Source of the DNA: Bacteroidales bacterium
GTDB taxonomy: Bacteria; Bacteroidota; Bacteroidia; Bacteroidales; JAGONC01
Assembly: GCA_028716265.1 (NCBI GenBank)
Contig: JAQUQD010000027.1
Location: 1 to 36,947 of the forward strand
DNA length: 36,947 nt
Direction: 5' to 3'
The translations under genes and the position numbers were made by a program. A model generated the notes under the pieces. That model worked only from the letters and a program-made list of their open reading frames with translations. It was not told the origin of the DNA and did no database searches. Every line of letters begins with the position of its first letter. Positions within the stretch are counted from its first letter, which is position 1. Shown piece by piece: positions 9,101-34,198 of the stretch.

Positions 9101-9163
9101 GATATCTGATATCAGATTGCCGATTACCGATTTCAGATAGCTGATAGCTGGTTGCTGATTTGT
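9101..9163. repeat. Heptanucleotide-periodic array, nine units beginning GAT/GGT
   Basis: The stretch divides without gaps into nine 7-bp units: GATATCT, GATATCA, GATTGCC, GATTACC, GATTTCA, GATAGCT, GATAGCT, GGTTGCT, GATTTGT. Eight start with GAT. It begins one base after the purF-type stop codon and runs into the last codons of the convergent HIT gene. It also contains a perfect 14-bp palindrome, ATCTGATATCAGAT (9104-9117). Confidence 0.75.
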
Positions 9164-9534
9164 CGGGCAGTTTCGGTGAATTCCTCGGGTGTGAAAGCAA
9201 GTAAAGGCTTTTTGAAGTCGATGTCATTATTGTCGTTTGTGGGGATCAGGTGAATATGGGCATGGGGGACATCGAGCCCCACCACCACCAGACTAACCCT
9301 CTTGCATTCGATAACTTTCCCGATGGCAATGCCAATTTTTTTGGCAAAAGCAAAAAAATCCTTGTACAACTGGTCTTCCATATCGAAGATGTAGTCGATC
9401 TCTTTTTTGGGAACAATCAGGGTATGGCCTTTTACCAGTGGATGGATGTCGAGGAAAGCAAAGAACTGATCATTTTCGGCGACCTTATAGCTGGGAATTT
9501 CTCCGCTTGCTATTCTTGAAAAGATGGTACTCAT
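9133..9534 (-). CDS. HIT-family (histidine triad) nucleotide-binding protein
   Basis: A 133-residue cytoplasmic protein with the histidine triad PHAHIHLIP (about 97-105), the catalytic H-x-H-x-H motif of HINT-like phosphoramidases and nucleotide hydrolases. The N-terminal MSTIFSRIASGEIPSYKV and FLDIHPLVKGHTLIVPK are characteristic of the family, and the length is normal. Family members act on AMP-linked phosphoramidates or dinucleotides; the physiological substrate is rarely known. It lies 28 bp downstream of greA on the same strand and is probably co-transcribed. Its last seven codons (NQLSAI and stop) fall inside a heptanucleotide repeat array, so the array supplies this protein's C-terminus. 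Confidence 0.92.
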   Translation of the reverse strand: MSTIFSRIASGEIPSYKVAENDQFFAFLDIHPLVKGHTLIVPKKEIDYIFDMEDQLYKDFFAFAKKIGIAIGKVIECKRVSLVVVGLDVPHAHIHLIPTNDNNDIDFKKPLLAFTPEEFTETARQISNQLSAI

Positions 9535-9562
9535 GGGATGAGGATTTTAAAATGATACGGAG

Positions 9563-10042
9563 TTAACGTGAAATCTCAATGATCTCAAAGGGTAATATGC
9601 CTGCAGGTACATGGATCTCAGCAATCTCACCCACTGTTTTTCCGAGCAATCCCCTGGCGATGGGGGAGCTTACCGAAAGTTTACCGGTCTTGAGATTGGC
9701 TTCTTTTTCCGGGACCAGCGTGTAGGTCATCACCGCATTATTCTTGAGGTTTTTGATTTTTACGGTTGAAAGCAGCAGCACTTTGGAGCTGTCCAGTCTG
9801 GTCTCATCCAGGATGCGTGCATGACGGATCTCCTCCTGCAGTTTGGCAATTTTCATTTCGAGCATTCCCTGGGCATCCTTTGCAGCGTCATATTCCGCAT
9901 TTTCGGAAAGGTCGCCTTTGTCTCTGGCTTCGGCTATCTGACGGGAAATTGCAGGACGTTCGACAGAGATCATGTGTTCCAGTTCTGCTTTCAGCTTGTC
10001 CAGTCCTTCCTGGGTATAATACTTCACCTGTTTCATATCCAC
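9563..10042 (-). CDS. greA: Transcription elongation factor GreA
   Basis: A 159-residue protein with the two GreA domains. The N-terminal coiled-coil hairpin (residues 5-78) has the tip acidic loop GDLSENAEYDAAK, which reaches the RNA polymerase active site. The C-terminal FKBP-like domain includes SPIARGLLGKTVGE. It stimulates RNA polymerase to cleave backtracked transcripts. Length is standard. The start may be Met1 or Met3 (10042 or 10036). First gene of a probable greA-HIT operon, with a good promoter in the 93-bp gap upstream. Confidence 0.95.
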   Translation of the reverse strand: MDMKQVKYYTQEGLDKLKAELEHMISVERPAISRQIAEARDKGDLSENAEYDAAKDAQGMLEMKIAKLQEEIRHARILDETRLDSSKVLLLSTVKIKNLKNNAVMTYTLVPEKEANLKTGKLSVSSPIARGLLGKTVGEIAEIHVPAGILPFEIIEISR

Positions 10043-10135: not shown

Positions 10136-11194
10136 CTAAAAACTTATGCCGGCACCGATACGGTGAACGCCATCGAACGGTTCGGTATCGGTGTACGAAT
10201 AATCGACATAGAATTTAGTATTGGAATCTTTGCTGAGTGGCACCTGGACGGTGAAGCCTGCGCTGGGTCCTGTAAAAACAGTAGTGCGGTCGGTATCTTC
10301 CGTGATCCCGTCTTCATAGGTATATCCACCCCTGAGCATCAAGTAATCCTTCAGGGAGAATTCCAAGCCGGCCGAGATCTGGTCCTTTGTAAATGCATTG
10401 GAAACAAAGTTGGCAGCAAGAGTCAGCCGGTAGTTGCCCGTGAAGTTGATGTCGTAGGCAGCGCCGATGTTCAGCTGTGAGGGCAGCTGATAGCTTGCAG
10501 CACGTTGTTCAACTGTGAACTGGCTTTCCTGTCCGGGTAGAAGCGTGCGGATGGCGAGCCCGTCCCCGGAGAATTTCATGGTTGGGCCCCAGTTTCTCAG
10601 AGTGATCCCAAAATGGATGTTGTCGGTTTCCCCTGTCACATATTGAACACCCGCGTCTATGGCAAAGCCCATTGCCGATATGTCGGAAATGCTTTCGGAT
10701 ACCAGTTTTATCTGCAAGCCCCCGTAAATGCTGTTGGAAAACATCCGGGAGTAGGACAGGGCAAAATTCAGCAAACTGGGCGAGAAGTTACCGATGCCTC
10801 CTTCCGGCAGGTCAACGGTAGTGATGGGTATGTCGCCAAACGACATCGACATAACACTCAGGCCGAGAACACCGGATTCTCCAATCTTCTGGGTCAATCC
10901 AAAGGTGTAGATATTGATGTCGGAGCCTCTCAGCCAGTTGGTATGGCCAAAGGTGATATCCGTCTTGTTGATGAAGGCGGTTCCAGCAATATTGCTGAAC
11001 ATACTTTCCACTCCCCTGACGTTTGCGGTATTCACCCCGCCCCATCCGGAGCTCCTCGCCCACGGGTTGATCAGTAATTCAGAAGCTCCGGCCTCCCCTG
11101 ATCTGTCCTTGTTTCCGCCGAACGTCGAAATCACAGGCGCAATCATCAACCAGGAGATCAAAACAACAGGAATATATCTTAGCATCTGTTTCAT
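10136..11194 (-). CDS. PorV/PorQ-family outer-membrane beta-barrel protein
   Basis: A 352-residue exported protein. The N-terminus is a signal peptide (MKQMLRYIPVVLISWLMIA...), followed by GASELLINPWARSSGWGG and VRGVESMFSNIAG, which match the conserved start of PorV/PorQ proteins, where the mature chain opens with a small-residue-rich segment and an N-P/A-G pair. The rest is alternating amphipathic strand sequence ending in aromatic Phe (RIGAGISF), as in outer-membrane barrels. PorV of the T9SS shuttles cargo from the translocon to the attachment complex; paralogues are frequent and mostly uncharacterised. It lies 54 bp downstream of a T9SS cargo gene and probably shares its transcript. It could be a dedicated carrier for that cargo or simply a structural barrel. 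Confidence 0.85.
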   Translation of the reverse strand: MKQMLRYIPVVLISWLMIAPVISTFGGNKDRSGEAGASELLINPWARSSGWGGVNTANVRGVESMFSNIAGTAFINKTDITFGHTNWLRGSDINIYTFGLTQKIGESGVLGLSVMSMSFGDIPITTVDLPEGGIGNFSPSLLNFALSYSRMFSNSIYGGLQIKLVSESISDISAMGFAIDAGVQYVTGETDNIHFGITLRNWGPTMKFSGDGLAIRTLLPGQESQFTVEQRAASYQLPSQLNIGAAYDINFTGNYRLTLAANFVSNAFTKDQISAGLEFSLKDYLMLRGGYTYEDGITEDTDRTTVFTGPSAGFTVQVPLSKDSNTKFYVDYSYTDTEPFDGVHRIGAGISF

Positions 11195-11248
11195 TGTTGA
11201 GAGATTTTCAGTTTTACAATATCATTTGTCATTTTTCTCTGTCAGGGA

Positions 11249-14200
11249 TTAGAAAGCATTCAAATCGACCGGTCGCAGCGACCCAAACCATTTGAGGATC
11301 CGTTCGCCAACGCCGTCAGCTTTGACATAAACAAGGTAGATTCCGCTCGCAACAGGAATACCGGCATAGTTCTTCAGATCCCAGTCGACCGATGTTTTGG
11401 AGTCATCCTTGGTGAACTGACGGATGAGGGTTCCACTCATGGTATAGATCGAGATCGAGCATCGCTGGGGCAGGTTGGTGATCTTCACACGGTTGTCCAG
11501 CTGATTGGTCTCATAGGGAGAATACCCGTAATAGGGATTGGGGACGATGTTGATAAGATCCAGATCTGTTTTTGCTTTTTCCACATTGTCGGTCACCGTG
11601 GCGAATCCTTCCGTGTTGAACTCGTAGGCCGGATAGAAATTATTGTATGTAATGTCGGGATCCGGAATAAAATAGGACGAATCGGGGTAATAGACCGTGT
11701 CGGCCAGCGGTGTGGAGAAGTACTGGCTGTAGGGCTTGGTTATTCGGATCTTGATTTTGGCGTCATTGGAGAACCATGGTTCGCCATCCACAGCCAAGGG
11801 AATGCCAACCCACATGCAGGAGGAATAAATGATGGCCTTGCCGACCTGGTTGTAGTTGATCGGGATCTCTTCCCGGATCCGTTTCCCCGCATCATACGCC
11901 GGCATGTCAAATTGCCGGAGGTAGGTGCCACTTTCAGCATATTTATTATATGTATGGGCAAACACATATACATAATGTTTGCCTCCGAAGATGGCTCTGG
12001 TATTCAACGGATCGGTAAAATCCCAGACGGTAGAGGTGGGATTCCATAGCATGTCGCGGCCGTTTTCCTTGACCAGCCATGAATCTTCGCTGAACGCGAT
12101 GTTGAGTCTTTCCCCGGTCTCGATGTTGATTGCATAACCGGGGAACCAGCCCATACCGGTAGCGCTGATGTAGTTTGGATCGTCGGGGTTGTCGCTGGCT
12201 TCGGTTACTCCGGCGGGGGTTGGCTTGCCGTCTTTATCCACCGAACGGCCAGACCGGGTATCAAACTGTACTGCACCACCTTCAGCCAGCTTCGGGTCCG
12301 GGCACATTTCAATGACCGGGCTGCGTGTCCATTTCGATTTATCCGCAGTGAGGACGATATCGACACTGGCCACATCATAGATATTCATGGTCAGTTTTGA
12401 CTGGTTTGATACCTTGCCGCCTCCAAAAGCCGGTCCGGCCAAGTTTTGTGAGTTGGATGCGCACAGTCCGTAGGGAGCCCAGGTCCCGCTCAGCACGGTC
12501 TCATAGTTTGCATCGGGATCGAACGCTCTCCCCTCAGGGGTACCATCGATTCCGACGTAAAGGTTCCAGTCGTTGTAGGCGGCGTTGTCCGGGTCGGTGA
12601 ACTCGCCGGACCGGATCCAGTTCTGGGCCCATGGATTGTCATCGTCGGGTACGCCACTGAGCCACCTGCGTGAACTGTCGGCATAAATGATCGTACTGCC
12701 CTGCAGTCCACTGTTTGCTTCCAGTACAGCGTATACATCGTTCTGGTCGGGATCCTGGCCGACCTTGAATGTTCCGGGCGGGTATTTTTGATGAATGGTG
12801 ATGGAAAAACCGAGATCCAGGAACAGCTGTTCATTATTATAAGAAATGTTCGTGTCCGAGATGTAGGTCTTGTTATTCACCACATCGACCAGGCGCCACT
12901 TGGCGATGTATGTTGAAGTTGTATCGCCGGTTGTATTTGGATCACCTGTAATATCATAGACCTTCATATAATACAGGGAATCGAATTCCACCCGGTATGT
13001 ACCGGATTTGACATTCAGCGGATCGATGATCCTGACTAGGATGGGCCCTGCATTGGTCTCATACTCAGGTTGATAGTTGATGGGATAGGTCTTGGTTCCG
13101 TAGATGTTCCCGCTGGTGGAATCGGCCCAGTCCAACGGTGGTTGGGCCAGGATCTTGTCGATGCTTTCCTGTGTAAGTTCCAGGACATTACCGCCATTTC
13201 CCTGTCCTGCCAAACGGGTGATCCTGGGAATATCACCATAATCAGCCTGTGTCGAGATCGTCCCAACAGTCTTGTGCGGGATACCTGTGTACACCTTGAT
13301 GTTTTTCCTTCCGGCCAGGTAAGGTTCTTTCTGCCCATCCAATCCGATGATCGGAGGCTGCTGAGCCCCGGGGTCCTGGCTGTAGATCATGTATTGGTTG
13401 AAACCATAGGCCAAGGCGAGGAAATAATATTGTTTATGGTTGACAAAACGGTCACCGCTGAAGGCATCCTTGGTCAGTACAAAGGTATGGCTGATCCCGA
13501 GATCGGCTCCATTGACCTCCTCCACGGGGACATTCCCGCCGAGCGCCTGGTCGTAGTAATAATTGACGAGTTGGCCGATCCCGTTTCTCACATCGCACTG
13601 GAACACCGGGCGGGCAAGGTCGGGATTTTTAAGATCTGCCACTGAGACACTGGAATTGGCCAGCTGAAATACCTGGTATCCTTCAAAGTTATAGGTGGAA
13701 TCGTACCTGTCCGCTCCGTGGAGATCATCGGGACTTTTGATGTTCGGATCGATCTCTTTATAGCTTTCATTGAAGTTGTTACCCGCATCGTTGGACCTAC
13801 GGTTGGTGATATAGAAGATCAGTGTCTGGTCGAGTTCGCGGATGGTAAGATCCGGTGCGTTGGGGCCGTTGACGACCTGGAAGCAATTGTCGAACAATGA
13901 CTGGCATTTGTCGTCGGTCACCCTCAGTAAAGCGACGGATGCTTCTGGTCCTCCGGAGGCCGCCCTTGCCCAGGGTATACCTACGGTGATGTAGTTCACC
14001 GCTCCGGGTTCGAGTTTGAAGGGACCTGCCGACTGCATGAACCTTCTGTCGTATGGGTTGTTGCCTGCCGTGACCTCTGTCCAGTAAACGTCTCCGTTGG
14101 GAGGATTGCCCTTTGTTCCCCAGAAGCATGGATCGGAATCACCGGGAAACATGAAGTCGCAATCAGGTCCGTAGGCCCCTGATGATATATGTGCATTACC

Positions 14201-15565
14201 TCCATACGTCATCTTGGTTCCATCTTTCCAGATACCCCTCAGGAAATTGTAGTATTGGGGGGCGTAATCCGGGTCGGTCATGTATTCAGCTACGCCCGAG
14301 TTGTTATGATACACAAAGCGGCGCATCCCGAACCGTTCGTTATCCACGATGCCGTCGCCGAAGTTCACGCCGTTCAGGGCCATCTGGTCCAGTGTATCGG
14401 GGCTTGTCACCAGTGCGCAGTTACCCTCGAAGGCTGGGTTGTCTTTCCCGTCAGGATCCATGTAAGGGCCCTGGAAGAAGTCAACTCCGATGGCCGGCGG
14501 TTGGCTCCCGTATGCCCAGGCTTGTCCTGAACCATCCACGGAGGTTCCGTTGTAGCAATATCCCAGTCCCCTGTCCACATCGCATCCCACATAGTCATCC
14601 TTCGCATAACCAAGGTCGGTGTCCACCCACTGGCTGAAATAGGTATCCCTCAGCACGAAGGTTGACCGGTTGATGATCTCGTAGCTGTAGAAGGTCATAT
14701 TGTTGATCTCGTCGTTCGTGGTGAAACCAAAAGCCTGGCCTCGAATCTCCATCCCGATGGGATCCCCTTCGGTTTCCGTATGGATGTTCCCCTTGTCGTT
14801 GAACACCCACCATAGTGTCTGGTCTCCCTTGATTACCTGGTCGGCAAGGATACCGATTCCTTCCATCGGAGGCAGTGAGCTTTTGCAGAGCACGTTTCCG
14901 ACATCGTAGTAGGGATAGTCCCCTGAATAGGGATCATAATTCCCATCTCCGTCGCGGTCATAGAAGGGTGCCAGGTAATAGCTTTGGTTTCTGGAAACAT
15001 CGCCATGGGCAGGCCAGTCGATGATCGATGTGGGAATGCTGTAATCGGGGTAATCGCTTTTGGCATCCCACCAGGCTAGGAACTGGTCGATCTCAGCACG
15101 CGTGATGGGAAACAATCTGTCGTACTGAGTGCAGATATCTTCCGTGATAGAAGCCGTTCCATCCACTGTCAGAGGACCGGGCCAGTAGTCGTTCCCACCA
15201 CCAAAGTCAGGTCCCTGCCGATAACGGATAGCAGCCAGCTTGAGCTGATCGTTCACGTCGATGCCCCCGATCCAGAGGGAGGCTGAGAACATCGACATTT
15301 TACCTGATTTCTTTGGGATCTCGTAATCTGCATCCTCAAAATTCCACCACATGTCGCCCCCGGTATTGATCCTGGTCCTGACATTATTGATATCCAAATA
15401 TTTAAAACCTGCTCCCGGCAAACATCCTGCTGCTGTCGATTTGAGTTTGGCTGCTTTAGCCTTTCCTTCCGGCACCGGTACTTTGTCGGCAAAACTGTAT
15501 TCGGTCACCAGGAACAGACCAAACAGCGTGACTAAAGCATATCGAAGTATATTTTTCATATTCAT
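11249..15565 (-). CDS. Giant surface protein with T9SS type A C-terminal sorting domain
   Basis: A 1438-residue exported protein. The start is placed at 15565 (MNMKNILRYALVTLFGLFLV, a signal peptide; 15559 also possible); the frame extends 31 codons further into the upstream gene but without signal-peptide character. Early segments LDINNVRTRINTGGDMWW and SLWIGGIDVNDQLKLAAIRYRQ are typical of a large Bacteroidota family of unknown function. YDRDGDGNYDPYSGDYP is a calcium-loop-like acidic segment. I recognise no catalytic domain. The C-terminal 90 residues (IVPNPYYGYSPYETNQLDNRVKITNLP ... ISIYTMSGTLIRQF ... GIPVASGIYLVYVKA) form a T9SS sorting domain, followed by a family-typical tail ending RPVDLNAF. 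It would be secreted through the outer membrane and anchored or released. It sits between the TonB receptor and PorV-like genes. Confidence 0.85.
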   Translation of the reverse strand: MNMKNILRYALVTLFGLFLVTEYSFADKVPVPEGKAKAAKLKSTAAGCLPGAGFKYLDINNVRTRINTGGDMWWNFEDADYEIPKKSGKMSMFSASLWIGGIDVNDQLKLAAIRYRQGPDFGGGNDYWPGPLTVDGTASITEDICTQYDRLFPITRAEIDQFLAWWDAKSDYPDYSIPTSIIDWPAHGDVSRNQSYYLAPFYDRDGDGNYDPYSGDYPYYDVGNVLCKSSLPPMEGIGILADQVIKGDQTLWWVFNDKGNIHTETEGDPIGMEIRGQAFGFTTNDEINNMTFYSYEIINRSTFVLRDTYFSQWVDTDLGYAKDDYVGCDVDRGLGYCYNGTSVDGSGQAWAYGSQPPAIGVDFFQGPYMDPDGKDNPAFEGNCALVTSPDTLDQMALNGVNFGDGIVDNERFGMRRFVYHNNSGVAEYMTDPDYAPQYYNFLRGIWKDGTKMTYGGNAHISSGAYGPDCDFMFPGDSDPCFWGTKGNPPNGDVYWTEVTAGNNPYDRRFMQSAGPFKLEPGAVNYITVGIPWARAASGGPEASVALLRVTDDKCQSLFDNCFQVVNGPNAPDLTIRELDQTLIFYITNRRSNDAGNNFNESYKEIDPNIKSPDDLHGADRYDSTYNFEGYQVFQLANSSVSVADLKNPDLARPVFQCDVRNGIGQLVNYYYDQALGGNVPVEEVNGADLGISHTFVLTKDAFSGDRFVNHKQYYFLALAYGFNQYMIYSQDPGAQQPPIIGLDGQKEPYLAGRKNIKVYTGIPHKTVGTISTQADYGDIPRITRLAGQGNGGNVLELTQESIDKILAQPPLDWADSTSGNIYGTKTYPINYQPEYETNAGPILVRIIDPLNVKSGTYRVEFDSLYYMKVYDITGDPNTTGDTTSTYIAKWRLVDVVNNKTYISDTNISYNNEQLFLDLGFSITIHQKYPPGTFKVGQDPDQNDVYAVLEANSGLQGSTIIYADSSRRWLSGVPDDDNPWAQNWIRSGEFTDPDNAAYNDWNLYVGIDGTPEGRAFDPDANYETVLSGTWAPYGLCASNSQNLAGPAFGGGKVSNQSKLTMNIYDVASVDIVLTADKSKWTRSPVIEMCPDPKLAEGGAVQFDTRSGRSVDKDGKPTPAGVTEASDNPDDPNYISATGMGWFPGYAINIETGERLNIAFSEDSWLVKENGRDMLWNPTSTVWDFTDPLNTRAIFGGKHYVYVFAHTYNKYAESGTYLRQFDMPAYDAGKRIREEIPINYNQVGKAIIYSSCMWVGIPLAVDGEPWFSNDAKIKIRITKPYSQYFSTPLADTVYYPDSSYFIPDPDITYNNFYPAYEFNTEGFATVTDNVEKAKTDLDLINIVPNPYYGYSPYETNQLDNRVKITNLPQRCSISIYTMSGTLIRQFTKDDSKTSVDWDLKNYAGIPVASGIYLVYVKADGVGERILKWFGSLRPVDLNAF

Positions 15566-15593
15566 GCGAATTTTAAAATTTCGTTCAATACAA

Positions 15594-18500
15594 TTAGAAG
15601 TTAAAGATGATCCCGAACCGAATCTTGCGGGGAGAGCTATAGTTACCGGGCCGGTCAAGGGCCAGCTCGTACAATTCCCTGTAGGAGTCCGGATTCAGCT
15701 GCTGGTTGATCTGGGTCTGCCATTCGTCGGCTGCCAGATAACCATCGTCATCGGGATTTCCGGTGGCCGGATAGACTGTAAGGATATTTTTGGCGTCAAG
15801 TACATTGAGTAACTGGAAATAGACATTCAAATAAGAATAGTGCCGGTTGTCCCCTTTGCCCATTGCGATTTTGATATCCCGGTCAATCCTGGCATCGATC
15901 CTGAATGCCCAGGGGAGGCGTGATCCGTTGAGCGATCCCTGGATGACCAGGTCGTTCTGGACAAGGGCGGGATAGATCTCTGAGGACCGTGTGTAGGGCG
16001 TTCCTGATCCGCCGAACAGGGTGAGGTTGATACCCGTTCCTTCCAGCCATTTGATATTCCTGACCTTGTCGGAATCTTTTGGCTGTTTGCGGGAGACCGG
16101 TCCATTGTATTCTGGTCCTTCTCCCCAGCGGTAATCGAACGATAGGTTGATCCTGTGGCGCTGATCGATGTCGAGGGGATTCAGTGTACGGAGGTTGGGC
16201 TGTCCGGAACGGATGAAAGCCTGCGCAGTTTCAGGATTCGAGCCCGTACCGTCGGCAAACTGGAGGGTATAGCTGGCCCTGACGCGGGCGTTACCCGTAC
16301 GTCTCAGGTCATAGGTCACCGTCAGGCCTTTGATCGTACCGAAGTCTATGTTATTATATGAATAGTAAGTGGAAGGGTATGCTCCCGAAAAACGGTAGCT
16401 CTGGATCTTGTCCCTGACTTCCCTGTAAAAGGCTGAGATATTCAGTGAGGAGGTGGGCCCCAGTTTTTGCTGGAAACCAAGTTCATAGTCGATGGTCTTC
16501 TCCGGACGCAGGTTTGGGTTGTTGATGGTGGGGTTTCCCCTGACCTCCCAGTAATAATAATCGGTGGGGGTAGAGAAGAAATTGCTCGTGGGCCGCTGGG
16601 TTAGAATATCATAATGGGCATAGAACAATGCTTCGTCGGAGATTGGGAATGAAAAAGCGATGCGCGGCATGAAGTTCAGCGCGGGATCATAATCTTCAAA
16701 AGCTTCCGCCTGGATGGATTTGTCATCCGGGTTGACCAGGTATGGGGAAACGCCGTTACCGGCATCCAGTTCCGCTTCGGGATCAACGACTTCAATCCCC
16801 TTGGCATTGTACCACACTCCTTCATTGCGATACCCCATGATCTTGGTAGGATTGCTTACATTATCCACATAAACGACATAGTCCCCGCCCATGTTGGAAG
16901 GATGAGCCCCCAGGTCATTGACCTCCTTGACCGACTTTGTCGGGTAGAGGACATATTCGTCTTTGAGAACTTTCTGGTTCGCGTCGAACCGGTCAACACG
17001 CAATCCGACGTTGAAGATCAGATCCTTGAAGGCAAAGACATCCTGTATGTAGCCGGCCATGTAAATGGGTTCATACGCCCCGATGGCCCGGGTGAAGTTC
17101 CCCTTGTCATCTTTCTGCGTGAAAAAGTCCTCAAAGCTGGGTTTATCCTCCAGTTTATTCCCGTAGGCATCATATCCGTAATACGCTACGATCTGGTCAC
17201 CTTCATTGAGCAGTTCATCCGGGCTGAACATTTCGATATTGAGTCCGTCGGGGAGTGTTGCCTGGTGATGGACCCCGTCTTTGTCATAGTAATAGAGAGT
17301 ATGTGTATCGACATCATAGGAATCCACGTCGATCCAGTCCAGGCCATCAACCTGGAGACCAAGGACCTGCCGGAGCTGTTTGTCGAAATAGAACTGGGAA
17401 TTGGCGTCATACTTACGGTAATAATTGATGGTATCCTGGAACACTCCATCGACGAATACCGGTTGAGGATTTGCCAGGTCAAGTTCACGGATGTGCCAGT
17501 TGGTGGTCTGGTACATTTTTGCCCAGAACTGTGTCGGGGCGACGTTGTATCCACTGGACGAGCGTTGCTGGTACTGGATGCCAAACTGAAGGGCATGGTT
17601 ACCGATATCGGCAGAAGCCATCAGGTCGATGCCAATCTGCTCTGAATCATTTTTTCCATAATTTGTTTGCAGCGTACCGGGGCTGGCCCAGAGCCCGTAG
17701 ATGTTATCGGGTCCTCTCCCGTTGAGGATCCCGCCTTCACTCAGGATGACATCATTGCGGTTCCGAATGCTTTCATGCATCTCATAATACTGGCTTGTAT
17801 AGTTCGACAGGATAGGATTGGCCAGTCCGGGAGTATACGAATAGAGGGTGTCCTGCCAGTTGTTCATAAGATATCCCCACAACCCCGCGACAGAGTCATA
17901 TTCGAGCGTAGGAGTATAGTTTCTGGTCTTGTAGGTAGTGAATTTACCGATATAGCCATAACTGAACATGTCATCCCGATGGTCTGGATCCTCCGTAACC
18001 GAATAATTTTTAGTATAGTCGGCCTGGATCGTATAGAATACATTTTTGATGGCCGAAGTACTTTCTTTATCCGTAGGAAAGCGTTGAGTGAATTTTCCAA
18101 ACACGCGCCATGTATTTCCGTAGGAGTGGCTGTTCTTGTCGTAATTGGTCAGCGAATTACCGAAGCTGTAGTTCCGTAAGTCATACATCGAGTAGTTGCC
18201 TCCGAAGGAAAGATCGATGGTGGGAGAAGTCCGAACGTCGATCTTTCCGGATACGTTGATCTGATAGTTAGAGGAGTTCAGCGACGAGTTGATTTCTTCC
18301 ACGTCGGTCATGCGTAAAAAGTCAGTGTTGTAATAGGTTCCCGATCCGGTTCCCGTGGGGCGAAGCGGTGATTGTTCCAGGGCGGCCAGCACATCGTCCT
18401 TCACTTTGTACAGATCCGTGGCTGATGGCCTGCCATCCTGATTGTAGATAAATTCACCCGCGATGAAATAGCCCAGCAGGGAGACCGGGTTAGTGGGGTC

Positions 18501-19295
18501 CTTGCTCTTGATGAGGGGGCCGTTGAGGTTCAATCCTACCCTGTTATACCCATAGGGATCAAGGTATTGCGATGTCTGTGCTTCGATGCCCATGCCGAAT
18601 TTTCGCGATGGCCCCTTGGTGGTAACATTGATGATACCACCGGTGGCATCTCCATATTGCGCCGGAATACCTCCCAGCACAACGGATACCTGGTCGATGG
18701 CGGATTCGGGCAGGGCGGTGGAGCCGGTGACACGGATCCCGTCAATATAATAAATGGTGTTTTCAGAACGCTGGCCCCTGATGCTTCCCACTTCCCCATC
18801 GGCAGAATAAACGCCCCCGACCGTTGTGGCGACAGCTGCAGCCGACTTGTTGGGCATCTTGGAGATCTCCTCCGAGGTCACCGTCCCTCCGGAAGAAGTC
18901 TGGTCCTTGCTGATCAGAGGGACCTTGTAATCAATGACTTCAAAGGTTTCCAGCGTGACCGTGGTGGCTTCCATATCAATATCCAGAAATGTGATCTTAT
19001 CAGCGCGTACGATCACACCGGTCACCATCTTGGGCTTATACCCCACATAGGTTGCCTTGACATCATACGTACCGGGATTGATGGGCTTGATGGTGTAATT
19101 CCCGTCAAAGTCCGAAGTAGCTCCGCCTTTCTGAGCTCCTGCAACTTCCACGATGATATTACAGAATGGGATCGGCTCTTCTGAATCCTTATCGATGATC
19201 CGTCCTTTCAGCGTCCCCGACTGTGAATACGCAAGCAGGCTGGCAGCCAGGAATAAACCAACACTTAACAGTAAATTTCTTATCATACCTGACAA
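15594..19295 (-). CDS. TonB-dependent receptor with N-terminal carboxypeptidase-regulatory-like domain
   Basis: A 1233-residue outer-membrane receptor. Residues 1-25 are a signal peptide (MSGMIRNLLLSVGLFLAAS...); the start could also be Met4. About 26-110 is a CarboxypepD_reg-like beta-sandwich (GTLKGRIIDKDSEEPIPFCN, DFDGNYTIKPINPGTYDV). About 130-240 is the plug (TSEEISKMPNKSAAAVATTVGGV, IRGQRSENTIYYIDGIRV, GGIPAQYGDATGGIINVTTK). The remainder is a large barrel ending in Phe (IRFGIIFNF). Such receptors import substrates powered by TonB/ExbBD; the substrate is not evident. There is no SusD-like lipoprotein next to it, so this is not a standard Sus-type pair. It heads an operon with a T9SS cargo (28-bp gap) and a PorV-like barrel. 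Confidence 0.92.
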   Translation of the reverse strand: MSGMIRNLLLSVGLFLAASLLAYSQSGTLKGRIIDKDSEEPIPFCNIIVEVAGAQKGGATSDFDGNYTIKPINPGTYDVKATYVGYKPKMVTGVIVRADKITFLDIDMEATTVTLETFEVIDYKVPLISKDQTSSGGTVTSEEISKMPNKSAAAVATTVGGVYSADGEVGSIRGQRSENTIYYIDGIRVTGSTALPESAIDQVSVVLGGIPAQYGDATGGIINVTTKGPSRKFGMGIEAQTSQYLDPYGYNRVGLNLNGPLIKSKDPTNPVSLLGYFIAGEFIYNQDGRPSATDLYKVKDDVLAALEQSPLRPTGTGSGTYYNTDFLRMTDVEEINSSLNSSNYQINVSGKIDVRTSPTIDLSFGGNYSMYDLRNYSFGNSLTNYDKNSHSYGNTWRVFGKFTQRFPTDKESTSAIKNVFYTIQADYTKNYSVTEDPDHRDDMFSYGYIGKFTTYKTRNYTPTLEYDSVAGLWGYLMNNWQDTLYSYTPGLANPILSNYTSQYYEMHESIRNRNDVILSEGGILNGRGPDNIYGLWASPGTLQTNYGKNDSEQIGIDLMASADIGNHALQFGIQYQQRSSSGYNVAPTQFWAKMYQTTNWHIRELDLANPQPVFVDGVFQDTINYYRKYDANSQFYFDKQLRQVLGLQVDGLDWIDVDSYDVDTHTLYYYDKDGVHHQATLPDGLNIEMFSPDELLNEGDQIVAYYGYDAYGNKLEDKPSFEDFFTQKDDKGNFTRAIGAYEPIYMAGYIQDVFAFKDLIFNVGLRVDRFDANQKVLKDEYVLYPTKSVKEVNDLGAHPSNMGGDYVVYVDNVSNPTKIMGYRNEGVWYNAKGIEVVDPEAELDAGNGVSPYLVNPDDKSIQAEAFEDYDPALNFMPRIAFSFPISDEALFYAHYDILTQRPTSNFFSTPTDYYYWEVRGNPTINNPNLRPEKTIDYELGFQQKLGPTSSLNISAFYREVRDKIQSYRFSGAYPSTYYSYNNIDFGTIKGLTVTYDLRRTGNARVRASYTLQFADGTGSNPETAQAFIRSGQPNLRTLNPLDIDQRHRINLSFDYRWGEGPEYNGPVSRKQPKDSDKVRNIKWLEGTGINLTLFGGSGTPYTRSSEIYPALVQNDLVIQGSLNGSRLPWAFRIDARIDRDIKIAMGKGDNRHYSYLNVYFQLLNVLDAKNILTVYPATGNPDDDGYLAADEWQTQINQQLNPDSYRELYELALDRPGNYSSPRKIRFGIIFNF

Positions 19296-19331
19296 TTTTA
19301 TATTAGCGAAACAAATGGTTCGAAAAGTTGG

Positions 19332-19363
19332 TAAAGTTACTAATAAATAATTTTTTAATCCAA
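19332..19363 (-). promoter_or_regulatory. Promoter of the TonB receptor / T9SS cargo / PorV-like operon
   Basis: On the minus strand TTG (complement of 19361-19363) is followed 21 bp later by TAACTTTA (19332-19339), one mismatch from TAnnTTTG. This is the best spaced -33/-7 pair in the window. It predicts a transcript start near 19325, about 30 nt before the receptor's start codon. Confidence 0.6.
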
Positions 19364-19387
19364 ATTTTTGTCTTACTCAGTCTTAAA

Positions 19388-19964: not shown

Positions 19965-20714
19965 CTATAAATGACTGATCATACGCAGGACCTGTTCGCG
20001 CTTTCGTCTGGAGACCGGGATGGTACTGCCATCCGTCATGAGGATCTGTCCACCTTCCTGTCTCTGGTAGCCCCTGATAAAGCCCGGGTTGACGAGGTGG
20101 GATTTATGCGGACGGATGAAATCGTGGTCCTTCAGCAGTTCTTCAAATTCCTTCAGGGTCTTTGATACCAGGAGGGTTTTTCCGGTGTTGAAATAAAAAC
20201 GGGTGTAGTAGTTGTCGGATTCGCAGCGAATGATAGTATCTATATCCACCACATACATTTGTTCGGTTGTCGACAAAACGATCTTTGCCGGTTTTTCAAC
20301 GCTTGACCTTATATTTTCCAGCAGCACGCGGATATTTTCATTCATCTGGTCGGACCGTTTCTTCTTCTCCGCTTTTTCCACTGCTCGGATCAGTTCATCC
20401 GGGATGATGGGTTTAAGCAGGTAATCCAGTGCGCTGTAGCGTATCGCTTTGATGGCATACTGGTCGAAGGCGGTGACGAAGATGACCTGGAAGGTGCGGT
20501 CGCCGAGTAGTTCCAGTAATTTGAATCCGCTTCCGTCAGGCATCTGGATATCCAGAAAAAGAAGGTCGGGCTGAAGTTTTGGGATCATTTTAAGACCGCT
20601 TTCGACGCCATCGGCAATGCCCACGATGTCGACCTGCTGACAGTACCGGCTCAGCATGGCGGTAAGGGCGTCCTGGGATTTCTTTTCATCTTCGACAATA
20701 ACTGCGCGGAGCAT
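19965..20714 (-). CDS. LytTR-family response regulator
   Basis: A 249-residue two-domain regulator. The receiver domain (1-120) has the acidic pair E8/D9, phosphoacceptor Asp55 in LLFLDIQMPDGSG, switch residue Thr81 and Lys101 in LLKP. The C-terminal LytTR DNA-binding domain (about 145-249) shows IIRCESDNYYTRFYF, LKEFEELL, FIRPHKSHLVNPGFI and PVSRRKREQV. LytTR proteins bind direct-repeat promoter sites. The gene follows the LytS-type kinase gene with a 93-bp gap that holds a 38-bp repeat, and the two are evidently a cognate pair. No obvious Shine-Dalgarno site precedes the ATG. Confidence 0.95.
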   Translation of the reverse strand: MLRAVIVEDEKKSQDALTAMLSRYCQQVDIVGIADGVESGLKMIPKLQPDLLFLDIQMPDGSGFKLLELLGDRTFQVIFVTAFDQYAIKAIRYSALDYLLKPIIPDELIRAVEKAEKKKRSDQMNENIRVLLENIRSSVEKPAKIVLSTTEQMYVVDIDTIIRCESDNYYTRFYFNTGKTLLVSKTLKEFEELLKDHDFIRPHKSHLVNPGFIRGYQRQEGGQILMTDGSTIPVSRRKREQVLRMISHL

Positions 20715-20723
20715 AGAATGGTA

Positions 20724-20812
20724 ATTAATGGTTATTTGCTCAGCCCTGCGGGCTTCGCTTGATTAATGGTCATTGGCTCGGCCTTTCAGGCCTCGCGTGA
20801 TTAATGGTTATT
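20724..20812. repeat. 38-bp direct repeat with internal hairpin, 2.3 copies
   Basis: Copies begin at 20724, 20762 and 20800 (each with ATTAATGGT), exactly 38 bp apart; the third is cut off after 13 bp and overlaps the kinase stop codon. Each full copy contains a 5-bp stem with 3-nt loop: AGCCC/GGGCT (20742-20754) and GGCCT/AGGCC (20780-20792). Two of the five pairs differ between copies in a compensatory way. Confidence 0.8.
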
Positions 20813-23800
20813 CCATTCCCTTTCCTGATATCCGCACCTCCACCCTGGTACCGGCCGCGTCGCCTTTCTCGTCCGTCAAATCAATTACCTGCACGGAAAA
20901 ATGCTCCAGGTTCATTTTGTTGAGGACCTCCAATCTTTCCCTGGTGATGAGCATGCCCCTGGATTCGCGGCGGAGCCCGGATTCTTTCCCGATTTCTATG
21001 GCACGCCGCCTGCCGATCCCGTTGTCCTCAACGATCCAGAGAAGATGCTCCCCCTCCAGTGAGATCTTTATTCGTATAAGACCTTTCCCCTGTTTGTGCA
21101 GCAATCCGTGGATGATCGAATTTTCGACGTAAGGTTGGATGATCATGGTGGGGACCTCCATGAATTCCTCCTCCACAGCCGGATCCACCTCGATACGGTA
21201 ATCAAATTTATCATTGAAGCGTAACTTCTCAAGATCCATATAATTCCTGAGGGCTCTTAGCTCATCCTGAACGGGAATGAATGATTCCCTTGAATTGATG
21301 AGGATGGAACGCATGAGTTGTGAGAATTTCCCCAGGTAATCCACTGCCGTATCGGGTTCGTTCTCCAGAATGAAGCTCTGGATGGAATTCAGGGTGTTGA
21401 AGATGAAATGCGGGTTCATCTGCAGCCTGAGCGCCTGAAGTTCCGTGTCAAACAGCTGTTTTTCAAGATCCAGCATCTTCTTTTCGATCTCGTGCCTGCG
21501 GTGGATGATGTGGATCCGGCGATAGATGAAGTGACTCGCACCGCCGATGAACAGAAGGACACAAAGAATACGGAACAGCCATGTCTGGTACCAGATCGGT
21601 GTAATGATCACCACCAGGGAGGCACCTTTTTCATCCCAGATTCCACTGTTATTGGAACCAAATACTGTGAACCGGTAGGTGCCGGGACTGACCTTCGTGT
21701 AAGAGGCTACTCTGTTTTCGGCAGAGACCGTGGTCCACATATTATCGTAGTTGTGAAATCTGTAACGGTACTTGTTTTTTGACGGATTGGTGAAATCCAG
21801 GGCGGAGAATTCAATGGTGAAAAAGTTTTCCCTTGCACTGAGACGAATGGTGTCACCATCATGAAACTCACCGGGAAGCGTTTTATCGAAAACGGAAAAG
21901 GAGGTGATCACGGTCTGCGGGGCAGCAGGGTTGACTGTGATGGTGGCTGGATGGAACACGTTGAATCCATTCATGCCACCAAAGTACAGTTCTCCTTTCC
22001 GGTTCCTGTACTGCGCTCCCAGGTTGAATTCATTGCTCTGGATACCGTCCTTTACATCATAATTCATGAACGAACCGGTTTTAGGGTTGAATCTGGACAA
22101 GCCCCAGTTTGTACTGATCCACAGGTTGCCTTCCTCATCCTCCAGGCAGCCGTATACCACATTGCTGGGAAGTCCGTGCCCGGTGTTGTATTTCCGGAAC
22201 GATCCCGTTTGTTTATCGAACCGGTTGAGTCCTCCTCCCTTGGTTCCCAGCCAGAAAATTCCGCGGCTGTCCTGGAAGACGGAGAAAACCTGCTGTGCTC
22301 CGATCGACGAAGTATCGGCAGGATCATTTATATATGCATAAAAAGTCTCGTTGTGAGGATCATACTTGTTCAGTCCGTTCCCGGTACCCACCCAGAGGTC
22401 GTGGTCCGAGTCTTCAAAAACAGACCAGATCTTGTTGCTGCTAATGGATCCTGGTTCACCCGGATCGTACTTATAGACCTTCACCGTGTTCCGTACCGGC
22501 TCCAGCCGGTTGAGGCCGGCCTCCGTTGTTCCGATCCAAATGAAGCCGCGACTGTCTTCCAGAATGGAAAGTATCTCATTGCTGCTGATGCAGTTGGTGT
22601 CTTTGGGATGGTACCTGTAGTGGATGAATGTGTTGGAGGCAGGAATGAATCTGTCGACCCCGTTGTTCTGGGTACCAATCCAGCATGTACCTGTCCTGTC
22701 GAAATACACTACCCTTAGAAAGTTGCTCGAAAGGCTGTTGTTGTTTCCTTCCTGGTGCCTGAGGTGAGTGAACTCACCTGTCTTCCGGTCCAGGATGTTC
22801 AATCCGTTGTCAGTCGCTATCCATACCCTCTGTGACGGATCCTCTGCAATGGAGATCACGTAGTTGCTGCTCAGGGAATTCGGATCGTCGGGATATTTCC
22901 TGTAAAGCAAAAATGCTCCTGTAAAGGGCTCTATTTTGTTGATCCCGTTGAAGGTGCCGATCCACAGCGTACTCTTCCTGTCCTCATAAAGGCTCAGAAT
23001 GCGGTTGTTGCCGATGCTTCGGGTGTTGTAGGATTGATTGAGGAAACGGGTCAGTTCATCTGAAACGGGATCCCACCGGTTCAATCCGTTTTCTGTACCG
23101 ATCCAGATCATGCCCCTGGCATCCTTCTGCAGGGAGGATATCCGATTGTCGGACAGACTGGATGGATCAGCCGGATCATGAAAGAAATAGCGAAGGGAAT
23201 CCTTTTGCATATCGATCCGGCAAAGTCCATTCGGCGTTCCTGCCCAGAGGTACCCCGGCTTTTCGACCAGGATCTCTTTTACAACGTTGTCAGGGATGGA
23301 CGATTTGTTGCCAAGTATGTGGTAATACCTCGTCACAGCATAGGTCCTCACATCGAACCGGATGAGCCCCATGCGCGTTCCCAGCCAGAGCACATGTGAT
23401 CCGTCGTACTTCATATCCAGAATCGTATTGCTTCGCAGGGGCGTATTGTCCTGGGGAAGATGCAAAAAGCTCGTGAAGGTCCCTGTCGTCCGGTCATAGT
23501 AACACAGTCCCTGCCGTGTACCGATCCAGATCTTCCCGTCCCTGTCCTGAAGAAGGTCTGTGATGTCGTTGTGGATAATACCCGAAGGATCTTCCGCAGT
23601 GTGGCGGAACGTTTTCATGATCCCTGATCTGCGGTTGAACAGGGTCAACCCATTATCGGTACCGATCCAGAGATCTCCTGCATCGTCCTCCAGCAGGGCC
23701 TGAACCGTTTGTCCTCCGATCTGGTCTCCCGGGAATACCGTATAGCTGTATCCGTCGTACCTGTTCAAACCATCCCACGTCCCAAACCACATATAGCCAT

Positions 23801-23999
23801 AGTTGTCCTGCAGTATAGCGTAAATCGTGTTCTGGGACAGATTTTTAACGGAGGATTCATATTGAAAGGAAAGCCGGTCGAAAGAGATGTCATCCTCTGT
23901 TTGTGCCGGAAGCCGTTTTGGGTTGCTGATATAAGCCATCAGCAAGAGGAAGGGTGCGATGGATCGCAGGGATGATATGCCGGGGAGTGAATTCCACAT
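20808..23999 (-). CDS. Two-component propeller sensor histidine kinase (LytS-type)
   Basis: A 1063-residue inner-membrane sensor. A signal peptide (1-33) leads to a periplasmic region with 14 recognisable propeller repeats of the WIGTxxGLNRYD type, enough for two seven-bladed propellers (about 45-700). A Y_Y_Y domain follows (YRYRFHNYDNMW ... SPGTYRFTVFGSN), then one membrane span (about 807-826), a short coiled coil and the LytS-type His_kinase domain with His864 in LQMNPHFIFNTL. The HATPase domain has QPYVENSIIHG (N960) and EDNGIG. Unlike the hybrid SusR/BT-type sensors with the same front end, it has no receiver or AraC domain; the LytTR regulator is a separate gene downstream. Such propeller sensors usually detect glycans or other periplasmic ligands; the ligand here is unknown. 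The lipoprotein gene ends 25 bp upstream. Confidence 0.95.
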   Translation of the reverse strand: MWNSLPGISSLRSIAPFLLLMAYISNPKRLPAQTEDDISFDRLSFQYESSVKNLSQNTIYAILQDNYGYMWFGTWDGLNRYDGYSYTVFPGDQIGGQTVQALLEDDAGDLWIGTDNGLTLFNRRSGIMKTFRHTAEDPSGIIHNDITDLLQDRDGKIWIGTRQGLCYYDRTTGTFTSFLHLPQDNTPLRSNTILDMKYDGSHVLWLGTRMGLIRFDVRTYAVTRYYHILGNKSSIPDNVVKEILVEKPGYLWAGTPNGLCRIDMQKDSLRYFFHDPADPSSLSDNRISSLQKDARGMIWIGTENGLNRWDPVSDELTRFLNQSYNTRSIGNNRILSLYEDRKSTLWIGTFNGINKIEPFTGAFLLYRKYPDDPNSLSSNYVISIAEDPSQRVWIATDNGLNILDRKTGEFTHLRHQEGNNNSLSSNFLRVVYFDRTGTCWIGTQNNGVDRFIPASNTFIHYRYHPKDTNCISSNEILSILEDSRGFIWIGTTEAGLNRLEPVRNTVKVYKYDPGEPGSISSNKIWSVFEDSDHDLWVGTGNGLNKYDPHNETFYAYINDPADTSSIGAQQVFSVFQDSRGIFWLGTKGGGLNRFDKQTGSFRKYNTGHGLPSNVVYGCLEDEEGNLWISTNWGLSRFNPKTGSFMNYDVKDGIQSNEFNLGAQYRNRKGELYFGGMNGFNVFHPATITVNPAAPQTVITSFSVFDKTLPGEFHDGDTIRLSARENFFTIEFSALDFTNPSKNKYRYRFHNYDNMWTTVSAENRVASYTKVSPGTYRFTVFGSNNSGIWDEKGASLVVIITPIWYQTWLFRILCVLLFIGGASHFIYRRIHIIHRRHEIEKKMLDLEKQLFDTELQALRLQMNPHFIFNTLNSIQSFILENEPDTAVDYLGKFSQLMRSILINSRESFIPVQDELRALRNYMDLEKLRFNDKFDYRIEVDPAVEEEFMEVPTMIIQPYVENSIIHGLLHKQGKGLIRIKISLEGEHLLWIVEDNGIGRRRAIEIGKESGLRRESRGMLITRERLEVLNKMNLEHFSVQVIDLTDEKGDAAGTRVEVRISGKGME

Positions 24000-31343: not shown

Positions 31344-31390
31344 CACCATCATGCCACGTAAACCATATTATACAGGTGGCTGGTGAAGTT

Positions 31391-34198
31391 GTGAAATGCT
31401 TTGCCCACAATAGTATTTATTGGATTGCAGTTCTTTTTGCTTGCGCTTCTTCCCTCTCCTCCGATGGTCAGCGATGGATTACCGTTACCTGTTCTATTAC
31501 GACTGAATGTGGCAGCCCATCCGGGGCAAAAATTTCGTTAATCAACCTGGACGGAAATTCAGATCACCGGCATGATACGATTTCCCCACCCAGTGGTATT
31601 GTCCGTATTGACAATGTGCTACACGGTTTCTATGATCTGTATGTTGCATTCGGCTCTTTCCAGATTTACCAGGCGAACTCATTTTTCATTCATAGTGACA
31701 CCACAATCCATATTCTCCTGAAGGAATCGTGCCCTCCACCAACCGGAATCCATTATAATCTAACTACCCATTATGTATGGTGGGATCCTCCAATTTTTTG
31801 TACAAATACTATTTTTTCTGAGGGCTTTGAGAGCGGAAGTATTCCATCCGGATGGACATACGAGTACATGAATGATACCGTTGACTGGATAGTGCATTCT
31901 GGAAGTCCGTCAGGATTCCCAAACTATTCTATTTCAGGTGATTTCAATACGTGTATTACGAATGGAAATGCAACAACGATGCTTATTACTCCTGAACTGG
32001 ATCTGAGTTCTTCTGTTCAATCAGAACTGGTATTCTGGCATACACAAGCCGGTGATTCAGTGCAGGATCAGCTGAACATTTACTATAAAACAGCCGACAC
32101 TGCGCAATGGCAACTGTTGGTAGAATATTATGCTCCACAAAATAACTGGATACGGCATCGGATTCCGTTACCCTCCTTATCGGATTCGTATTCTATTGGA
32201 TTTACCGGTAATGTACAAACAGGTGGATTAGGTATCTGTCTGGATGATATACAGATCCTTTCTGCAGATACCAATTCTGGTAAAGCGCATAGGTGCGTCG
32301 AAGGGTACGATATTTACATGGACGGAATACTTATGGCGACAATATCTGATCCATTTTTGACTTTAACTGACCCCCTGCTCGGTATTAACTGTGTGGGAGT
32401 CAGCACCCATTGTTCCTTCACATCTTCAATAATCATAGAATTAGTGTTTCTCTATCCTCCTCCCTGCGAAGTTTTCGCTCAGCCTGTCAATCTAACCCTT
32501 ACGGTGGAAAGTATGGCTGCGTTACTTCATTGGGATCCTCCGGAGAGAAAACCGGAAGAAAAGCAACACGTTGAAAATGAATTGTACAACAGAATGAGAG
32601 ATACTCAAGGTCTAAAGTACGATGATTTTGAGCTGGCCGGATATAACATATGGAGAAATGGGGAAAAAATCAATGCATACGTTGATACAAACACTTTTTA
32701 TTCAGACACGGTCTCACCCGGAGGGATCTATTATTATTCGGTGACTGCCGTTTATGATTTTGGACAAAGCTGCCTGATCGAGCCACCACTGGAAGCCGTA
32801 ATGGGAGCTAAATTGAATACTCCTCAGGGCTTAATGGCACAGGTTCTTGATAATCAGGATGTATTGATTACGTGGAACCCTCCGGATCCATATACCGGTG
32901 AATGGATCGCCTGGGACGATGGTATCTATTTTGGAAGGATAGGTTTAGCGGGAATAACGGAACCCACCAGTTGGTATGCAGCAGCAAGATTCCCGGTCAC
33001 CGACCTTCTGCCCTACAACGGAATGTATCTGACTGAAATCAGGTTCGTAGCAGCTGTCGCTACGACAATTTCTTCTTACACTATCAAGGTGTGGTACGGC
33101 GAGGATGCTGCCTTTGAAGTTGTCAGCCAGCTTGTCCCGAATCCTGTCATTAATTGCTGGAATACGGCTGTACTGGATGATCCTTACCTGATCGACGCCA
33201 CACAGGAACTCTGGTTCGGTGTTGAATACACACAGGTTGCGGACGGATATCCTGCAGGTAGAGACGAGTTCACCAACAACGACGGCAAGGGTAACCTGCT
33301 GAGTTTCGACGCTATCGAATGGGAAGCCCTGTCAGTGTACGGAATCGGCGGTGACTGGAACATCCAGGGTTGGGTGGCATTGGAAGTTGCCAACTACGCT
33401 CCGGCTGCACCACTGGTGAAGAAGGTTGTCCAGAATTCTGGCGACCTGGCATTCGAAACCGTGAAGACGGATCAGATTGCCACCGCTCCTGCTGAAAACA
33501 GGGGACTGATTGGCTATAACCTGTGGAGAAACGGAACCAAGTTCACCTATGTTTCAGCTCCCGATACAGTTTGTACGGATTCAAATTTATATCCCGAATA
33601 TTATAAATACTATGTGTCAGCTGTATACGATGAAGGAGAGTCCTTCCCGGAAGGCCCGGCATACGTTACGATAGTCGGCACAGGTGATCTGGGTGGGAAT
33701 GTTTTTGATCATGAAACTGGAATTCCGCTCACGGATGCCACTGTAGTAGTCCAGGGAAATCTCTATGGAACAACTGGGTTTGAAGGTAGTTACATGATTG
33801 AAGATATTCCAGAGGGCACCTATGATGTCACCTGTGAAGCCTATGGCTATTTGATAAATACGATATCTGATGTGGTCATTGAATATCAGGAAACCACCGT
33901 TCTAAACTTTAAGATGGAGAAAGATAGCCTGGTGAATATGCCGGTTTATGATTCAAGGGGAAATGAGGTACGCGTTTATCCTAATCCATTACGGAATTAT
34001 TTAAATATCGAATCCGAAGGAAATTTCAGGGAAATCTATCTGGTAGATTACCTGGGTAGGGTAATAATGAAGGAAGATAATACCTACAGAAAACAGATTC
34101 AGATCAAGACAACTGGCTTAGCGGAAGGAGTGTATTTTATACAGTGTTATACAATGGAAGGCAATATGATCGTTAAGAAAATTGTCTTGTTGAGATAA
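31391..34198 (+). CDS. Multidomain adhesin-like protein with T9SS type A sorting domain
   Basis: A 935-residue exported protein. No ATG serves it: GTG at 31391 gives MKCFAHNSIYWIAVLFACASSLS, a plausible signal peptide; GTG at 31376 adds five residues. Order of parts: a short N-terminal beta-sandwich-like region; a cleaved-adhesin/MAM-like domain (about 140-290: SEGFESGSIPSGWTYE ... MLITPELDLSSS ... ICLDDIQILS); fibronectin-III-like segments (WDPPER ... YYYSVTAVYDFGQS); a second domain (ISSYTIKVWYGED, about 510-650); another Fn-III-like segment; a CarboxypepD_reg repeat (about 765-840: GNVFDHETGIPLTDATVVVQG); and the T9SS domain (VYPNPLRNYLNIE ... GLAEGVYFIQC ... KIVLLR). It resembles hemagglutinin/adhesin regions of gingipain-type proteins without their protease. 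Expected at the cell surface. Base composition looks uneven along the gene. Confidence 0.82.
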   Translation: MKCFAHNSIYWIAVLFACASSLSSDGQRWITVTCSITTECGSPSGAKISLINLDGNSDHRHDTISPPSGIVRIDNVLHGFYDLYVAFGSFQIYQANSFFIHSDTTIHILLKESCPPPTGIHYNLTTHYVWWDPPIFCTNTIFSEGFESGSIPSGWTYEYMNDTVDWIVHSGSPSGFPNYSISGDFNTCITNGNATTMLITPELDLSSSVQSELVFWHTQAGDSVQDQLNIYYKTADTAQWQLLVEYYAPQNNWIRHRIPLPSLSDSYSIGFTGNVQTGGLGICLDDIQILSADTNSGKAHRCVEGYDIYMDGILMATISDPFLTLTDPLLGINCVGVSTHCSFTSSIIIELVFLYPPPCEVFAQPVNLTLTVESMAALLHWDPPERKPEEKQHVENELYNRMRDTQGLKYDDFELAGYNIWRNGEKINAYVDTNTFYSDTVSPGGIYYYSVTAVYDFGQSCLIEPPLEAVMGAKLNTPQGLMAQVLDNQDVLITWNPPDPYTGEWIAWDDGIYFGRIGLAGITEPTSWYAAARFPVTDLLPYNGMYLTEIRFVAAVATTISSYTIKVWYGEDAAFEVVSQLVPNPVINCWNTAVLDDPYLIDATQELWFGVEYTQVADGYPAGRDEFTNNDGKGNLLSFDAIEWEALSVYGIGGDWNIQGWVALEVANYAPAAPLVKKVVQNSGDLAFETVKTDQIATAPAENRGLIGYNLWRNGTKFTYVSAPDTVCTDSNLYPEYYKYYVSAVYDEGESFPEGPAYVTIVGTGDLGGNVFDHETGIPLTDATVVVQGNLYGTTGFEGSYMIEDIPEGTYDVTCEAYGYLINTISDVVIEYQETTVLNFKMEKDSLVNMPVYDSRGNEVRVYPNPLRNYLNIESEGNFREIYLVDYLGRVIMKEDNTYRKQIQIKTTGLAEGVYFIQCYTMEGNMIVKKIVLLR

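Follow-up and report, generated by a model that had tools for sequence, protein, structure and literature searches.

What would bring the gene for a TonB-dependent receptor into one operon with the genes for a giant T9SS cargo and a PorV-like outer membrane barrel? The arrangement lies in a 36,947-nucleotide contig of a Bacteroidales bacterium (GCA_028716265.1, JAQUQD010000027.1), the whole of which we call the window. The sequence-only reading suggested that the three genes are a dedicated export-plus-uptake module, in which the cargo might cap or feed the receptor in place of SusD. The features that concern us are as follows.

20808..23999, minus strand: sensor histidine kinase with a Reg_prop/Y_Y_Y sensor domain, directly upstream (domain call)
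19965..20714, minus strand: LytTR-type response regulator, upstream of the module (sequence reading)
19332..19364, minus strand: Bacteroidota-type promoter candidate, TTTG-N21-TAACTTTA (by eye)
15594..19286, minus strand: TonB-dependent receptor, 1230 aa, with CarboxypepD_reg, plug and barrel and without a SusC-family match
11249..15565, minus strand: T9SS cargo, 1438 aa, ATG start, with a signal peptide and a C-terminal sorting domain; a phylum-wide family with no Pfam model
13874..15424, minus strand: cargo residues ~48-564, a predicted beta-super-sandwich like the N-domains of GH94/GH65/GH15/GH116
11252..11578, minus strand: cargo C-terminal domain (CTD), residues ~1330-1438, predicted fold nearest the CTDs of PorZ and PorU; extended by ~8 residues that end L-x-x-F
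10136..11194, minus strand: PorV/PorQ-family outer membrane barrel, 352 aa, module-private (profile and tree)
9133-10042, minus strand: GreA and a HIT-family protein, after the module

All three module genes lie on the minus strand, with gaps of 28 bp between receptor and cargo and 54 bp between cargo and barrel; the arrangement, its coordinates and its gaps agree with the first description. The receptor gene runs from an ATG at 19286 to 15594, and the listed ORF begins at a TTG at 19295. The promoter claimed upstream of the receptor is legible by eye as a Bacteroidota-type candidate: TTTG at 19364-19361, 21 bases, and TAACTTTA at 19339-19332, called on the Bacteroidota promoter consensus. A sigma-70 promoter scan, whose scope does not extend to the Bacteroidota type, returned no excess of sites over shuffled sequences, and neither did a terminator scan.

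Recurrence and co-inheritance of the three genes

We surveyed 395 genomes across Bacteroidota and found a relative of the cargo in 187 of them, representing 117 of 171 genera. Gene order was read in 40 loci from the surveyed cargo genomes and in 80 named Bacteroidales and Flavobacteriales loci. We collected 90 complete receptor-cargo-barrel triples, which come from Bacteroidales, Flavobacteriales and further classes and whose median gaps are 29 and 32 bp. The gene order, for which the sequence-only reading had proposed a search, is thus conserved across the phylum, which rules out an adjacency confined to the source genome. Because it recurs in dozens of genomes, the arrangement is not due to chance.

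Trees of receptor, cargo and barrel from 43 modules shared 26-29 of 40 splits in each pairwise comparison. All three trees had 23 splits in common, compared to 0.23 expected from shuffled labels, and duplicate modules within genomes were separated identically in all three with full support. These results show that the three genes are inherited together as a module across Bacteroidota.

Where a locus gave no complete triple, the contig ended there, an ORF had been called split or antisense, or the cargo was truly an orphan; lone cargo paralogues with neither receptor nor barrel occur in L120, L125, L136 and L148. Locus L069 (574-14509) carries two complete modules of the window's own class (the main class) in tandem. 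In L142 (12515-16627) and L143 (12384-14563) a second cargo gene directly follows the barrel gene, and one barrel may serve two cargos there. Four tandem distant relatives of the cargo stand in L074 (4279-16507) with no adjacent receptor or barrel, and the tails read were of the ordinary type A.

The T9SS component SprA (TIGR04189) is present in 304 of the surveyed genomes. All 187 cargo genomes have it, as does the source genome, and the cargo was found in none of the 91 SprA-negative genomes. This fits T9SS dependence without proving it, because most of the SprA-negative genomes belong to one family. Because the source genome also encodes SusD proteins, SusCD has not given way to the module in that genome. 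Nor do the counts support the idea that the module is, as a rule, a SusD substitute in SusD-less genomes, since SusD is present in 94 of the 187 cargo genomes and absent in 93.

The receptor, the barrel and the cargo

The receptor of the window consists of CarboxypepD_reg, Plug and TonB barrel domains and gave no match to the SusC family model TIGR04056 at an E-value of 0.01. Receptors of the sister modules described below do match TIGR04056, under its cut-off and in the N-terminal region only. A Pfam search found no SusD domain in the cargo either, and the description of a non-Sus TonB receptor without a SusD partner therefore stands.

The barrel passes the PorV/PorQ family model NF033709 (158.9 bits, cut-off 90). 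Its scores are below the cut-offs for PorV (NF033710, 69.1 against 250 bits) and PorQ (NF033711, 76.3 against 220 bits), and far below that of the PorV2 equivalog. For PorP/SprF, TIGR03519 gave 15.5 bits (cut-off 90.55) and Pfam PF11751 came just above its cut-off. The fold is that of FadL, with a weak TodX match, and among proteins of known structure the barrel profile matches the sequence of PorV best (5e-44), ahead of FadL-type channels. Two other PorV-family genes exceed the cut-off in the source genome (3.09 Mb, 99.6% complete): the general PorV, which lies directly after the PorU gene (426 bits; its NF033710 score is given as 496), and PorQ (335 bits, on C5). Their presence rules out the module barrel as the organism's sole general PorV and makes it a third paralogue of the family, a private copy as had been proposed. 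A general PorV was over the cut-off in all 20 module genomes checked. A 78-barrel tree placed all 37 barrels from modules in one clade (100% SH-aLRT support), separate from PorV (9) and PorQ (11); cargo-adjacent barrels thus have a clade of their own, as the sequence-only reading had suggested checking, and their tree is congruent with that of the cargo.

Beyond a type A T9SS tail that reaches the cut-off of TIGR04183, the cargo has no other Pfam domain. AlphaFold2 models of it were confident (pLDDT 82.7 for residues 24-830 and 88.1 for residues 740-1438). In these models the first 500 residues have a fold similar to that of the beta-super-sandwich N-domains found in glycoside phosphorylases and in glucosidases (best Z 18.8 across 249 residues at 10% identity), and the catalytic (alpha/alpha)6 helical barrel is absent. 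The claim that the cargo has no recognised enzyme domain holds. The predicted super-sandwich is a fold resemblance alone, from which ligand binding does not follow. A search of PDB sequences with the N-terminal profile returned no match, the barely probed stretch of residues ~760-1310 gave no clear fold match, and there were weak fold matches to S-layer and adhesin domains.

At the other end of the cargo, TIGR04183 (cut-off 23) gave 23.0 bits with the whole protein and 26.2 bits with the C-terminal half, and it matched 59 of 66 cargo relatives. PF18962 was not reported for the window cargo, and the type B models TIGR04131 and PF13585 gave no match at an E-value of 0.01. The cargo is one of type A by the TIGR04183 model, and structure prediction backs the CTD fold: the last 100 residues are modelled as a T9SS CTD closest to that of PorZ (Z 10.7, 2.3 A, 28% identity) and next to that of PorU (Z 8.6), with ordinary CTDs scoring lower (mirolase 7.4, NucA 7.0, RgpB 6.8). 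PorZ and PorU were also the sole returns when the CTD profile was compared with PDB sequences, at weak E-values of 0.11 and 0.15. The PorZ equivalog scored 33.6 bits on the CTD only (cut-off 260). Main-class cargos carry about 8 extra C-terminal residues, with a final F in 73 of 90 and an L at position -4 in 74 of 90; sister-class cargos end in K in 46 of 46. The CTD of PorU is retained on PorV and that of PorZ on PorQ, and it has been proposed that cognate PorV-like barrels may shield CTDs from cleavage (PMC10202324).

We compared divergence among module parts in the 54 loci that have all five genes, after removing the background divergence seen in GreA and HIT. After this correction, which is imperfect because both proteins are short, the partial correlation between CTD and barrel (0.65) exceeded that between the CTD and the rest of its own cargo (0.45) in every one of 300 bootstraps. 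When the remaining parts of the module were also held constant, the two correlations became 0.44 and 0.07. The receptor-barrel partial correlation was 0.77. Such co-divergence of CTD and barrel is to be expected if the barrel recognises its cognate CTD.

Gene neighbourhoods and a sister class of modules

GreA follows the module in 57 of 65 Bacteroidia loci, HIT is usually next, and both stay behind it across Bacteroidales and Flavobacteriales. Given this consistency, the copy has long resided at one place. The window's module class is single-copy in the source genome. Elsewhere, main-class neighbours include TPR, GWxTD, PGDH and cytochrome proteins, with no sugar genes; in L060 (3828-5993) and L066 (2989-5226), which are main-class modules from other classes, a multihaem cytochrome and a TPR protein follow.

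As in the window, a Reg_prop/Y_Y_Y kinase and a LytTR regulator lie directly upstream in 16 of the 65 Bacteroidia loci, each of which could be read for about 3 kb on that side. The Reg_prop/Y_Y_Y sensor domain of the window kinase is one that hybrid two-component sensors of glycan loci share. Kinase and regulator are possible regulators of the window module, and the pair hints at ligand-controlled expression. Such kinases also stand beside orphan cargos in L127 (with a regulator), L128 and L130.

Other classes of Bacteroidota have many extra PorV-family genes, which sit in more divergent modules of like composition. A profile of this sister-class cargo matched in 113 of 296 genomes. Of 40 sister loci read, 37 have the order receptor-cargo-barrel, another runs receptor-barrel-cargo, and the remaining two are truncated where their contigs end; the module is thus complete in all 38 uncut loci. 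Sister modules have multiplied within genomes. On the same strand, their neighbours include T9SS-tailed proteins (26/93), ABC sugar permeases, solute-binding proteins, LacI regulators, alpha-amylase, GH16 and ROK proteins, and the carbohydrate-binding modules (CBMs) CBM20, CBM4_9, CBM35 and CBM6. When 150 sister-class neighbours were set against 93 of the main class, solute-binding proteins numbered 8 vs 0, ABC permeases 10 vs 0 and LacI regulators 6 vs 0. SusD was not one of the 25 families found most often next to sister modules. The sister class therefore looks like the outer membrane core of glycan-uptake loci, in the place that SusCD usually holds. This lends support to the uptake half of the original proposal; the neighbours of the window's own class, which are housekeeping genes (GreA, HIT) and not sugar genes, count against it.

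A PPIC-type peptidyl-prolyl isomerase was found among 12 of 150 sister-class neighbours and 0 of 93 main-class ones (e.g., L283:7925-9436 and L284:6460-7986). It is perhaps a cargo-specific periplasmic chaperone.

A nutrient-uptake reading and its alternatives

Because the genes are kept and copied together, and relatives sit in sugar-uptake clusters, the module is probably a nutrient importer. We favour, with some reserve, the view that the three genes make one outer membrane nutrient-uptake machine, in which the private barrel holds the cargo and the cargo serves the receptor as SusD would. The general T9SS translocon (SprA) would carry the cargo across the outer membrane, and the module's PorV-like barrel, not the general PorV, would take the CTD of the cargo. 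The CTD would be kept uncleaved on this barrel, as that of PorZ is on PorQ. At the surface, the beta-rich ectodomain would sit beside the TonB receptor and capture or hand over a ligand, the job that the lipoprotein SusD does in SusCD. From the comparisons above we infer retention of the CTD, a receptor-cargo complex and nutrient uptake. We would give about an even chance to a broader proposal: that this is a second phylum-wide architecture of TonB import, a stable three-part complex in which the place of SusD is taken by a T9SS cargo whose uncleaved CTD sits in a private PorV-like barrel, each PorV paralogue being specialised for a single cargo through matching CTD ends.

The alternative that survives best, though we consider it unlikely, is that cargo and barrel are a second assembly of the PorQ-PorZ kind that helps other surface proteins to attach or mature, while the receptor supplies something such as lipid or metal. 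The nearest folds to the cargo CTD, PorZ and PorU, are both T9SS components, and the main class, single-copy in the source genome and with housekeeping neighbours, resembles a core component. However, sister modules multiply within genomes and stand beside CBMs and ABC sugar transporters in glycan loci that are substrate-specific, and many T9SS genomes do without the module (SprA in 304, cargo in 187).

Quite improbable, in our judgement, is that the genes are only co-expressed: the cargo would be an ordinary one of type A that the general PorV shuttles and PorU attaches, the barrel would be a FadL-kind channel for fatty acids or other hydrophobes, and the receptor would work alone. The cargo could use the general PorV, since type A tail models match 59 of 66 CTDs, and the FadL fold with its weak TodX match would suit a channel. 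Against this, the three trees agree through duplications, the CTD diverges more in step with the barrel than with the rest of the cargo, the CTD end is class-specific (F in 73 of 90 main-class cargos, K in 46 of 46 of the sister class), and the barrel profile matches PorV best (5e-44) rather than FadL-type channels. A structural surface coat or adhesin anchored by the barrel, with the receptor a bystander or sensor, would suit the large beta-rich ectodomain without an enzyme domain and its weak S-layer and adhesin matches, but it is very improbable given a receptor in essentially every complete locus, a receptor-barrel co-divergence as strong as that of CTD and barrel, and the glycan-uptake context of the sister class.

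The nutrient-uptake reading can be set against known systems. As in SusC-SusD, the gene of a CarboxypepD_reg TonB receptor adjoins that of a large surface partner, and the glycan loci that house sister modules also encode CBMs, glycosidases, transporters and regulators. Unlike SusC-SusD, the partner is a T9SS cargo of 1000-1500 aa and not a SusD lipoprotein, a PorV-like barrel is the third gene, and the receptor falls outside the SusC family by cut-off. BtuB-BtuG likewise joins a TonB receptor to a dedicated surface ligand-binding partner; that partner surfaces by the lipoprotein route, whereas the module uses T9SS.

PorP/SprF barrels and type B cargos (SprF-SprB, PorP-PG1035; PMC9143113) also have a dedicated FadL-superfamily barrel encoded beside one large T9SS cargo, which it is thought to anchor. 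Unlike them, the module includes a TonB receptor, its barrel belongs to the PorV/PorQ family and the CTD of its cargo is of the type A/PorZ kind. PorQ-PorZ and PorV-PorU (PMC10202324) pair a PorV-family barrel with a surface protein whose CTD is kept, and these CTDs are the nearest in fold to that of the module cargo. They differ in that the module barrel scores below both equivalog cut-offs, has its own clade and comes with a linked receptor; neither the propeller of PorZ nor the protease of PorU resembles the cargo ectodomain. The closest known arrangement is therefore PorP/SprF with type B cargo for the export half (PMC9143113) and SusCD for the import half; the module fits neither definition and combines features of both. 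We found no description of a receptor-cargo-barrel unit in the open-access literature, which was the scope of our search.

PorV is usually treated as a single general T9SS shuttle. In about half of the Bacteroidota genomes sampled, barrels of the PorV family have diversified and become private partners, each tied to a single cargo and to one receptor. If the nutrient-uptake reading is true, T9SS feeds nutrient importers directly, and T9SS sorting is tied to TonB-dependent import across the phylum. It would also give a role to many giant surface proteins that are so far anonymous and to many "PorV/PorQ family" genes, and SusD-less glycan loci would become recognisable in lineages that SusCD-based searches have missed. 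The module also offers a clean test case for CTD sorting, cleavage versus retention.

Two further T9SS-type cargos are encoded in the window, one at 31376-34198 (plus strand) with MAM and CarboxypepD_reg domains and one at 34334-36502 (minus strand) with BNR/Ycf48-like repeats visible by eye. The tails of both are of the ordinary kind, unlike that of the module cargo.
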